A stretch of DNA of 64,000 nucleotides, taken from positions 62,001 to 126,000 of the IMG/VR virus record IMGVR_UViG_3300044680_000280. One strand, given 5' to 3'. Below, piece by piece: positions 56,634-61,644 of this stretch; the stretch's first letter is position 1; the number at the start of each line of letters is the position of its first letter. The notes under the pieces are model-generated. The model was given only the letters and a program-made list of their open reading frames with translations. It was not told the DNA's origin and did not search any database. This DNA is from a virus. The translations under genes and the position numbers were made by a program.

Positions 56634-59600
56634 TACACGTTCCTCCTGTCGTAGGTTGTAGGAGCGGCCCAAACGGGAAGCGCAAGGTCCTCCTCCGTGG
56701 CACTGGCGTGACTGAAGAATTGAGCGAGAACGGTCTTTACCTCTGCCTCGGGTGTCGTCTCAGGGGTGGGATCGTTCTTTCCCGCAACGTTCTGTCCCGT
56801 TGTCAACCCAGCTTGAGCCACGAACGGGGAGATCCCAGCTTGCCGACCGTAAACGCTCTTACGTGGGCAGACGATGGTGAGGTTCTTTGCGGCTCGAGTC
56901 ATGGCCACGTAGGCCAGTTGGCGTTCCGTTTTGTACTCTTCTTCCCGTTCCTTTCGAAGAGCCTCCTGAACCTCGGGAGGCAGCTCGGCCTCCAAGGGGT
57001 TTGGCTTTGGCTCGTACGGAAACACTCCCTTGGCCATGACGACCGACGTGTTGTTCCATTGGGCGCCCTTGACAGAGTGAATCGTTGAAAGAATGACACA
57101 GGGGGGTGCTCTTCGTTCACTCGGAGCCAACTTTAGCTGTTCATCGTCCCAAGTCTTGAGATCGACACGCAAGTCTTTCGCCGCAACAACGAGCTTGTCG
57201 ATGCGAGCCTTGAATTTCTTTGGATCGCTCGGGTCCGTCTCTGGATTGTCTGGGTCTGGTTGGGCGATCTGAAATAGGAAGGCGACGTTTCCCACAGGTT
57301 TCTTGGATTCGTCATCATCGGGATCAGGCGGGGCATCACCTTCTTCCTCGTGCTCGTTATTGAATGGCATGAGAACGTCACGAAGAGTTGGAGCGTCTGC
57401 GCCTTGACGCTCAGGAGCACCCTTAATATTGAGGATATCCCCGAAAAGGTCCTGGGTTGTGTACTTTTTTTGTTCGCCACCCCTACTCACAAGAATCCCT
57501 GAATCGACAGAGCTTCGTATGCCGTTGAGAGAACGACCTAAATTCTCGAGCTCCTCACCAGTCGCTCGTACTTTCCAGTTTTCCCATCGACGAGCTGGAT
57601 CCATCGCGTCCATGAAGTCATTGATTCCGTTACGGTCAAACAAATCGAGGGGATTCACGTTCGCCGTGGTCGTTCCAGACTTGCGGGCCCTCTTCTCAAC
57701 AACCTCACGAACAATCCGTTCCGACTCCCCAGCCTTCAAGAAAAAACGGTTGGGCTTGTTCAAAATCTCAATGAGAGACCGCTGCATTCGCTCGAAGTCC
57801 TGCCCGACTGCGAGATTGAAGTAGCTCATGACCGTAATGGTCTCGGGCGACTTCAAAAAGCTTGTACCGCCTTTGCGGGCGTATGGAATGCCCTGAATGA
57901 TGCAGGCCGTTTCGAAGTCGTTCTGCTCCATGTTGGTGCGAGTAAGCACGGCATAGTTTTCGATGGGTTCCCCAGCGTCCAAATCCTGCTTGATCTGACC
58001 AACGACGTTGAGCGCTCCGTTTGCGTGCGTTGCGGGCTCCTGAACAACAATAGACGCCTGCCCTCGCGGTTTAGATGGGTCAGGACGGGCTTCGATACGA
58101 ACTGCCGTTTCATGGTGCTCCATGAGCTGATTGGCATGGTCCACGATTTCAGGCAGACAACGGTAATTGGTCTTGATCGACTTGACCTTCCAACCTGGCT
58201 TGCCGTGAAACTGATTGAAGAGCTCGGGACGCGCCCCCACGAAGCGGTTGATCGATTGTTTTGGGTCGCCCACGAGCCATTCGGACTTACCATCCGAGCC
58301 GTCGCCGATTTTCTCGCACATCATGTCGATGATCTGATGTTGAACCGTATTAAGGTCCTGGGCTTCATCAACGATAACGTGGTCGAACATCGCTTGGATC
58401 TTCGCTCGAACCTTCGGGTCTCTCTTCAAAAGGTCACGAAAGAGCAGAATCATATCGGAAAAGTCTCCGAGACGAGCTTTCCCATTATCGCGCCACTTGG
58501 CCAGAAATTCCCCCCATTGCCTGCTGGCTCTGGGGTTAGTCCTCACACACGGGGGAGACCAGTTCTTGTTGACGCCCTTAAAGCCTTGAGTCCAGGCGTA
58601 CCACTCAGCTTGAGCGGCCTCATCGGGTCCCTTTGCCGAAGCTTTAGCCTGTTCTGACGTAACGTCATTCATGATCCATGCTTGAACCACATTGCCTGTT
58701 TTGCGCGGCGGATCCTCATTTAAACATTCCTTCCAGATCCGAGACATGTACCCGAAAAACGCACCAGGAGATGGGGCACGACCCGCCCGATGTTCGTGAA
58801 ACCCAGACTTTTCCGAATCCTTTGGCATAAACCATGTGGAAAGAGTTGCCTTTTCCTCAGGAGTCCCGTTTTCCACAACAAACTTGCGAAACATCCCGTG
58901 CATCGTACCGACATGCATCTGATTAAGGATATTGTCCCCCACTCGAGCGGCAATACGCTCACGTAGCTCCCGAGCGGCCTTTTTGTTGAAACTAACGATG
59001 AATACGCGCGAAGGGTTCACCTTCTTTTCTTTGACCAAATAGGCGGCTCGAGCGGTCGCCGTCGTCGTCTTTCCAGATCCCGCGCCCGCATCCACGAGAA
59101 CCTTGCCGTCAGTCATTGCGGCGTCGAGCTGCTCGGGATCAAGACCTTTGAGAGACTCGGGAACGTTCTGTGCTTTTGCCGCCGCTACAGCCGCCGTCGC
59201 GATGCCCACCACCTCGGATCGGGTGGGAGGTATGTCTGGTGTCCCGCTGACCTCGAGCGCCTTTGCCGCCGCCACCGTGGCGTCCGCCTGAATGAGGCTC
59301 AGACGTTCTGTATGGGCCGCCTGCGCCTGGTGCCCCTCTTCACTCAGAGGCGGGCTGTTCGACTTCTTGGCGTGGTCTATGGCCAGCGCCGCCGTGTTGT
59401 CCTGCGTCGCCGTAGAGGCAGCGTCGACAGCATCCTGGAAAGATCCTGAACCCGCCGTCTTCGCCGCAATGTCGATCCACGCCCGAATGCGACCGTTCCG
59501 AACGTTGATAACTGAAAACTTGTCCAGGGCGATAGCGCCGTCGTCGAGACAGGACGACTGCATCGCCGTCTTGACCTCCTGAATGGCTTTGTTCGTCTTG

Positions 59601-60010: not shown

Positions 60011-60976
60011 CTAAGAAGAGAATTTGTCGAGAACCGTTCCGTCTTTCGTGTACGCTTCTTCGAGGTTAGGGACCAGGTACTGAGAGCGCAACGTGGACGG
60101 CTCGTGCCCGACCGCGTCGGACGTCTCATCCAACGCTTTCAAGAACTCCTTTTTCAGGAGCTTTTCTCGCTCCTTCTTGTCTTCAGGGAGTTCCTTGCCC
60201 TTCGACCGGATCGCCTTGAGACGCTCCTGCATTTCCCGGTTCGCATGATACCCCCGGAGATCCTTTGCCGTAACGTCAAAATCCTTCAGATAGGCGTTGA
60301 CTTTCTCAGCCGTAGCCTTCGGAAGAAGTTCGGAATTCTCCCCTTTGGCCGCTTCGTACGCTTTCTTGAGGGCCTTTTTGATGCCGGCGTCCGTGACCTT
60401 TTTGTCGTGATCCACCCCGGACTTGCCGACGTACCTAATGGTCGCCCCACCCGAACCGAAGCTCACGTGCTTCTTGCGCCACCCGGTGACCCCAAAGTGC
60501 CCGTCCTTGGCGCTGTCGTCATTGCCAACCCGCTCATACGTATGGTCAATGAGGGCGACCGCCAGGGCCGTTTGAGCCGTGTCCTCATCGTCGGAGGATA
60601 GGTCGCTCTTGTACTTAGTACGGAGTTTACCGATACTCTTTTTAAGGGCATCGATTCGCTCAGCCTTCTTCTTGTCCCGATTGGCAATTTGACGGTCCGA
60701 ATACTCGTAGACGGTCATTTCATCACCGTCTTTGGTCTTGACCTTCTTCTTGGACTTGTAGCTAGCGGCCACCCGCTCCACCATTGCCTTGTTGTGTTTG
60801 AAGTACTCAACCTCAGAAAGCCGCTTCTCTGCCTCACCCTTCGAAGGATAACAGCCCCCATTCCAGTCTTTATTATTCGGAGACCGAACGCAGAACTCCC
60901 CCTTCTCTTTGACGATAATGGCTACACGTGTCGCCGCAGCAATACGCCATACGACTCGAGGAGTTAGAGAGTCCAC
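60011..60976 (-). CDS. Type IB DNA topoisomerase, poxvirus-like (321 aa)
   Basis: The catalytic pentad can be placed: R167 in FGVTGWRKKHV, K185 in RYVGKSGVDH, R241 in VTAKDLRGYHA, H291 in DAVGHEPSTL and nucleophile Y300 in RSQYLVPNL. The preceding YERVGNDDSAKDGHFGVTGW is the usual G-N-x-x-x-x-x-x-x-F/Y-G-x-T entry. Such enzymes relax supercoils through a 3'-phosphotyrosyl bond. The length of about 320 residues fits poxvirus and bacterial TopIB. The start is GTG. The first 20 residues (SLTPRVVWRIAAATRVAI) are a basic amphipathic helix resembling the start of the 214-aa gene product. Residues 22-62 form a small domain (CYPSKGEAEKRLSEVEYFKH). It sits 23 bases after the 214-aa gene. Confidence 0.9.
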   Translation of the reverse strand: MDSLTPRVVWRIAAATRVAIIVKEKGEFCVRSPNNKDWNGGCYPSKGEAEKRLSEVEYFKHNKAMVERVAASYKSKKKVKTKDGDEMTVYEYSDRQIANRDKKKAERIDALKKSIGKLRTKYKSDLSSDDEDTAQTALAVALIDHTYERVGNDDSAKDGHFGVTGWRKKHVSFGSGGATIRYVGKSGVDHDKKVTDAGIKKALKKAYEAAKGENSELLPKATAEKVNAYLKDFDVTAKDLRGYHANREMQERLKAIRSKGKELPEDKKEREKLLKKEFLKALDETSDAVGHEPSTLRSQYLVPNLEEAYTKDGTVLDKFSS

Positions 60977-60999
60977 CCTAGTACGATCCGATAAGAACG

Positions 61000-61644
61000 T
61001 CAGTGTGAATCGTATTGGATACCCAAGTGCTCCCAGAGAGCCTCGAGCTCCAGAATCGTCATGTTTGAGGCCTTGCTCATGTTGTCCTTGAGCCAGCCGT
61101 AGAATGCGATGCCACCCTGCCGCCCTCGGGGCCAGTAATTGGTGTCCTGCCTGTAACCGTCCGCCGCTTTCCCCTCGGCATGAATGACAACACTGTTTGT
61201 CACGCGAAAATCACGGGGACTCGCATGAATACTGACAATAGTGTCATCAGGAAACTTCTTTTCGAGATCAATCGTCGTGCCCGCCGGCTCAACGTCAATC
61301 CCGCGCCTGGTTTGCTCACGAAGCTTGAAGAGATTCTCGTGCCCTGAGCGTGAGAGAATATCTTCCAAGTGCTTCTTCGCCTCGTCGTAGCTCATGTGAG
61401 AGATCGACGAAACTGCCTGCTTGACGATCTTGTCCGAAAGCTCGTCATTCAGAGTCTTCGGAATCAGAGTCAGCTCGCGAACTTTCTTGCCCCTCTTGCC
61501 AGCGTTCTGCATCTCCGTGATCTGAAGACTTCCGTGAAAGTGATGGAGCTTCAGATGTTCCGTAAAAGTGGATTTACCCACTTCCAACGCAACGATCCGG
61601 AGGGCAGCCGCTCGAGCTGCAACACGAAAGGCTAGGGGATTCAT
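61000..61644 (-). CDS. Protein of unknown function with leader shared with the topoisomerase (214 aa)
   Basis: A GGGAG six bases before the ATG at 61644 supports the start. The N-terminus (MNPLAFRVAARAAALRIVAL, then EVGKSTF) lines up with the topoisomerase N-terminus (MDSLTPRVVWRIAAATRVAI, then IVKEKGEF): L, R-V, R, A-A, R and V-A fall at the same positions. The rest has a helical segment (DKIVKQAVSSISHMSYDEAK; LEDILSRSGHENLFKLREQT) and a C-terminal alpha/beta part (DTIVSIHASPRDFRVTNSVV; RQGGIAFYGWLKDNMSKASN). No family is recognised. It is directly downstream of the sheath gene, and the leader suggests that it and the topoisomerase share a location, possibly the capsid interior. Confidence 0.7.
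   Translation of the reverse strand: MNPLAFRVAARAAALRIVALEVGKSTFTEHLKLHHFHGSLQITEMQNAGKRGKKVRELTLIPKTLNDELSDKIVKQAVSSISHMSYDEAKKHLEDILSRSGHENLFKLREQTRRGIDVEPAGTTIDLEKKFPDDTIVSIHASPRDFRVTNSVVIHAEGKAADGYRQDTNYWPRGRQGGIAFYGWLKDNMSKASNMTILELEALWEHLGIQYDSH

Follow-up and report, generated by a model that had tools for sequence, protein, structure and literature searches.

Known head-loading systems and the phage analysed here

The closest described system is that of phage T4, in which a short N-terminal capsid-targeting sequence (CTS) is common to otherwise different proteins (IPI-IPIII), the first 10 residues of IPIII suffice as such a sequence, and a head protease is encoded (PMC9026906). In phage P1, the N-terminal residues of DarB suffice for head loading, no more than the first 30 being needed, and the DarB cargo acts in the new host (PMC9024508). 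The polyvalent proteins of phages and conjugative elements are giant multi-domain proteins with ART and metallopeptidase domains that are predicted to be packaged and injected (PMC5512222). Large heads with many ejected proteins are found in phiKZ and SPN3US, where the known substrates among the inner-body and ejection proteins mostly carry long propeptides that are cut by a protease (PMC13282480, PMC10052503).

We analysed a 64-kb window, positions 62001-126000 of a 406,734-bp virus record, together with the rest of that genome and its relatives. Gene calls were mechanical, the records are possibly incomplete, and genes are named after their start coordinate in the genome (as in g171237). The major capsid protein has 482 matches in IMG/VR, and the nearest relatives are hundreds of uncultivated huge-phage contigs. 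By the same protein, the nearest named records are the uncultured 485-kb LR745208, Tunturiibacter phage Tunturi_5 (47%) and Bacillus phage G (38%).

A short element shared by the topoisomerase IB, its neighbour and other proteins

On the minus strand, the window encodes a type IB DNA topoisomerase (60011-60976; 321 aa, GTG start) and, beside it, a 214-aa protein (61000-61644; ATG start). The initial annotation had described a leader of 27 residues common to the two. Nine identities after the Met bear out the resemblance, but the element that is actually shared spans 12 residues (L4 to A15), and the proposed pattern is loose past about residue 15, the two proteins having its second Arg at different positions (R17 and R16). 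N-termini that share at least nine identities in the 26 post-Met residues are found in 8 of 103,285 gene pairs in the genome, and three of these eight are pairs of tagged genes. The tag of the topoisomerase, residues 4-15 (LTPRVVWRIAAA; 60932-60967, minus strand), scores 18.5 bits with the motif matrix, and that of the 214-aa protein, also residues 4-15 (LAFRVAARAAAL; 61600-61635, minus strand), scores 22.0 bits. The further statement that the rest of the two proteins is unrelated held: the topoisomerase belongs to PF01028 and the 214-aa protein has no match in Pfam or PHROG. Common ancestry of the two proteins was dropped as a candidate because their bodies are unrelated.

The match of the topoisomerase to PF01028 is strong (E 2.4e-28; 99.5 bits, cut-off 23.7), and a profile match to the poxvirus topoisomerase 2h7f was also obtained (E 2e-14). 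R149, K185, R241, H291 and Y300 are invariant in an alignment of nine topoisomerase homologues, and the catalytic Arg, Lys, Arg, His and Tyr, assigned via alignment to the poxvirus enzyme, are all present. Judged by profile and catalytic residues, the protein is apparently an active, poxvirus-like type IB enzyme. Its catalytic domain covers residues 98-295 (Pfam coordinates; 60092-60685, minus strand). Just ahead of this domain lies a second, internal tag that is missing from the initial annotation (residues 65-76, MVERVAASYKSK; 60749-60784, minus strand; 16.5 bits). A small module, residues 20-60 (EFCVRSPNNKDWNGGC...; 60797-60919, minus strand), separates the two tags. Since this module is a separate tagged gene in relatives (G018_269305, MKLAERVAARYREAIIRKEKGEFCVRSPNNPDWNGG; G010_11790; L057) and the internal tag lines up with the tag at the N-terminus of relatives (LRVVARYKSKKK and others), the outer tag and the 40-residue module look like an addition to the topoisomerase. 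In a second topoisomerase-like gene (genome 9370-10104; L002:9370-10104) two catalytic residues, His and Tyr, are missing, as is one Arg region.

The AlphaFold2 model of the topoisomerase (mean pLDDT 80) contains low-confidence helices at residues 6-16 and 57-73, corresponding to the N-terminal and internal tags, and that of the 214-aa protein (mean pLDDT 86) contains a confident separate fold and a low-confidence helix at residues 3-16. In both models the motif lies outside the confident fold. The helical hydrophobic moment of the motif is 0.52, compared with 0.36 for shuffled peptides, and the tag is predicted to be a mobile amphipathic helix separate from the folded body. A fold search with the 214-aa protein against BFVD and PDB gave no match at E 0.001 or better. 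In its family the tag is present in the closer homologues (L286-L289) and absent from distant ones (L290-L298), indicating that gain or loss of the tag did not depend on the rest of the protein. The family also has a conserved HRY...TDLTNAGKRGKK.

The tag can be written as [LI]-A-x-R-V-A-x-R-[YF]-[LAQ]-x-[AK] and usually starts two to five residues from the Met. We refer to it as the RVAxRYL tag; it does not seem to resemble the T4 element, and we did not find a description of it in the open-access literature searched. A first matrix, built from eight such N-termini, identified 11 genes at 14 bits or more in this genome, against 0.1 expected in shuffles. After iteration over seven genomes, one of them partial, 78 genes reached at least 15 bits, 12 of them in this genome, against 0.8 (about 1) in shuffled N-termini; thresholds for the motif vary by analysis (10, 13, 14 or 15 bits). 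The number of tagged genes per genome is about 5-17. After removal of a few doubtful cases, 74 tagged proteins remained; these form 48 clusters that show no similarity to one another beyond the motif. The initial annotation had proposed to look for other genes with the pattern, and these are thus present, both in this phage and in relatives. A short N-terminal element common to unrelated proteins of one phage is the arrangement that characterizes the T4 type.

The tag is not confined to N-termini, as a T4-type CTS would be. In the last 40 residues 14 copies were found, against 1.0 in shuffles, and between domains 21, against 0.3. Homologues without an N-terminal tag may have a C-terminal one, as does the topoisomerase G001_70657 (...LAERVAARFLT), and the J-domain protein G002_125601 also carries the tag at its C-terminus (...IAHRVVSRYINRV). 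Across the 78 examples, the information content is at background after position +8, that is from +9 on, which argues that there is no common cleavage site after the tag. A secretion signal was considered and dropped, as the tag has no hydrophobic core.

The tail sheath gene (phrog_2839, E 2e-25) is the next one upstream of the 214-aa gene and has the same orientation, and for this reason the late structural operon named by the initial annotation fits both window genes. It does not describe most other tagged genes, which are scattered; several are remote from the head genes, and one lies on the other strand. Because the tag is also present on genes in other parts of the genome, the key argument is not operon position but the head-cluster synteny in relatives described below. 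Four tagged genes, one of them metallopeptidase-like, lie close together at genome 22368-26894 (L003:3368-7855), and homologues of three of the four are also near one another in G001.

Among the 74 tagged proteins, Pfam recognized topoisomerase IB (four), DnaJ (two), ART-PolyVal, DRAT-like and metallopeptidase-like families and others, most proteins having no match, and PHROGs added ParB-like nucleases. No replication polymerase, nucleotide enzyme, tail tube or sheath family was matched by these proteins in either collection. The recognized types, namely topoisomerase IB, J-domain proteins, ART-PolyVal, DRAT-like ART, HExxH peptidases and a ParB-like nuclease, would fit effectors that are injected.

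A second short motif, [YF]xYDRR, is enriched within the first 30 residues (YDRR 31-fold) and is N-terminal in 26 genes of the seven genomes, with a few C-terminal cases in addition. Sites noted for it are at genome 2713, 45841, 214306, 232207 and 291417 and at window 56642-56653 (minus strand), the last being a possible copy at the C-terminus of a UvrD-type helicase. Five of nine YDRR-tagged genes with homologues have an RVAxRYL-tagged homologue, compared with 43 of 1,389 other genes (Fisher 4e-6), and the two tags therefore seem to be interchangeable.

Gene order and fusions at the head cluster

We recognized the head module of this genome through PHROG matches to terminase (genome 179390-181399), portal (175155-176987), head-maturation protease (168188-169681; phrog_18299, E 4.3e-10) and major capsid protein (165095-165976). 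The prohead protease that the initial annotation had suggested looking for is therefore encoded, near the major capsid gene; a sequence search of PDB with this protease gave no match. The major capsid protein, portal, protease and presumed scaffold are without tag. The motif does occur in a large head-cluster protein, g171237, whose gene lies between portal and protease, the place that is occupied in T4 by the prohead-core genes 67 and 68. In about 20 distinct relatives it follows a 'GGS' at approximately residues 65-100. Of the 46 homologous ORFs in the fetched stretches, 15 reach 13 bits and others score lower.

Relatives of the topoisomerase IB were found at 80 loci, 60 of them non-redundant, and with a cut-off of 10 bits the tag is kept in 48 of the 60. 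For about half of the tagged homologues the gene is visibly in the head-assembly cluster, in the terminase-portal or the portal-protease gap, and all nine small stand-alone topoisomerase genes outside a visible head cluster are tagged. Fusions of the topoisomerase to g179115 occur at 12 loci, in the TerL-portal gap immediately after the terminase gene, and fusions to the N-terminal part of g171237 at 16. At 15 loci (L021-L024 and 11 further) the portal gene stands directly before the topoisomerase gene, ahead of the head protease and major capsid protein. The order in L021-L024 is terminase, g179115, portal, topoisomerase, (g171237,) g170786, g170011, protease, g166720, g166005, major capsid protein.

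In the head clusters of L021-L024 and L299-L378 the topoisomerase IB is part of giant multi-domain proteins of up to more than 1,900 aa, many of whose ORFs run off the fetched stretch, with their neighbours beyond view. These giant proteins include homologues of g10101, g44010, g24494 and g2713, all of which are separate tagged genes here, so that the fused partners and the tagged single proteins overlap. In the genome under study g179115 is an 83-aa stub in the terminase-portal slot and the tagged topoisomerase gene lies elsewhere, from which we infer that it has probably been relocated.

A proposed portable capsid-targeting tag and its alternatives

We interpret the RVAxRYL tag as a portable capsid-targeting tag that docks cargo to a common prohead-core partner. 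Bound there through the 12-residue mobile amphipathic helix, each cargo would be packaged into the head alongside the DNA and, with its tag still attached, would presumably reach the next host cell when the phage DNA enters it. To this reading we assign a probability of roughly 0.6. The virus would have about a dozen such cargoes, the topoisomerase and the 214-aa protein among them, and in the new cell the topoisomerase might, for example, relax the entering DNA. The head location of the tagged proteins is one that we infer from gene order, fusion and analogy. Against it count the scatter of the tagged genes, the untagged major capsid protein, portal, protease and presumed scaffold, and the missing tags of Tunturi_5.

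The initial annotation went further and proposed a T4-style propeptide, which the head protease would remove once it had directed the protein to the prohead. A head-maturation protease is indeed encoded near the major capsid gene, and T4 and SPN3US cut short N-terminal propeptides (PMC9026906, PMC10052503). Cleavage as in T4 did not hold up, however: no residue is conserved past motif position +8 in the 78 examples, and tags also lie at C-termini and between domains, making this version decidedly improbable. Comparably poor odds attach to the idea that the motif is itself a site at which the head protease processes giant polyproteins, the copies on stand-alone proteins being leftovers or trim sites. 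Tags do stand at the domain boundaries of the giant topoisomerase polyproteins, typically directly before the topoisomerase domain. Yet the motif is strongly kept in the first ~20 residues of ~48 families, most of them never seen fused, where a cut would remove only a few residues, and it contains no Glu, the residue after which T4-type head proteases cut.

It is unlikely, too, that the tag sends proteins not to the head but elsewhere in the infected cell, such as a replication compartment, a membrane or a chaperone. A positively charged amphipathic helix with the moment given above could bind membrane or DNA, and a role in replication is conceivable for topoisomerase IB and J-domain proteins. 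Against such a destination stand the head-cluster synteny, the fusions to g179115 and g171237, the conserved tag in g171237 and a set of tagged proteins in which no replication polymerase or nucleotide enzyme was recognized. The correspondence between several of the tagged single proteins and domains of relatives' giant proteins could also mean that the tags are relics of linkers in an ancestral giant polyprotein and no longer have a function. This we regard as very improbable, given the sharp conservation in diverse genomes, the placement at either terminus in homologues, the replacement by YDRR and the C-terminal tag kept on the degenerate topoisomerase paralogue (G000_9370; ...LTVKVASRFQKLHG).

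Under the preferred reading, capsid targeting by a portable tag, the mode of action is most likely that of the T4 and P1 elements, by analogy, with a tag that is not evidently cleaved. We do not class the tag as a T4-type CTS, because the motif has no conserved cleavage site and also occurs at C-termini and between domains. Further likenesses to T4 are a head cargo that includes the ADP-ribosyltransferase Alt, ADP-ribosyltransferases being among the tagged proteins here, and the motif-bearing head gene at the position of its core genes. The P1 signal is described for one protein (PMC9024508), whereas the RVAxRYL tag is common to dozens of families. In contrast to polyvalent proteins, the parts are here separate genes sharing a tag, and the accessible part of that description contains no such tag (PMC5512222); the 321-aa window topoisomerase, with one enzymatic domain, does not combine several disparate domains in one polypeptide. 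The phiKZ and SPN3US reports likewise describe no common 12-residue tag in their available portions (PMC13282480, PMC10052503).

More tentatively, and at somewhat less than even odds, this globally distributed clade of huge phages may load dozens of different effectors, including an active topoisomerase IB, into the head by a code of two tags, RVAxRYL and YxYDRR, that can stand at the N-terminus, at the C-terminus or between domains and are left uncleaved. Most huge-phage genes are without known function, and if the tag marks head cargo, the delivered proteins would be recognizable at a glance in hundreds of uncultivated genomes, and would be candidates for taking over the host or countering its defences. 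It would be unusual for a virion to carry a topoisomerase IB, and the tag could serve as a protein-loading handle for very large heads.

Neither tag was found in Tunturi_5, the nearest annotated isolate, which encodes polyvalent ART proteins near its head genes. In the ~88% of the phage G genome that was read (L265-L285), there is no RVAxRYL motif except in the doubtful gp13. Phage G has an N-terminal leader of its own, (K/R)RL(I/L)KK(S/A), found in 27 ORFs with a loose pattern against 1.8 in shuffles; gp13, gp17, gp20, gp38 and gp57 are among the proteins that begin with (K/R)RL(I/L)KK. With a strict pattern it occurs in 18 ORFs, including five of seven ART-like ORFs (Fisher 7e-8), a label that rests on motif because Pfam support is below threshold, and three of 21 ORFs of the portal-capsid region (P 0.01); these statistics are post hoc, since the pattern was chosen after inspection. 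By analogy, the leader suggests the same strategy with another sequence. A host clue was also sought among bacterial assemblies, where two MAG contigs matched (L379 and L380, one labelled Actinomycetota). Both are phage-like stretches with topoisomerase fusions of the head-cluster type, and they may represent either a clue to the host or a binning error.
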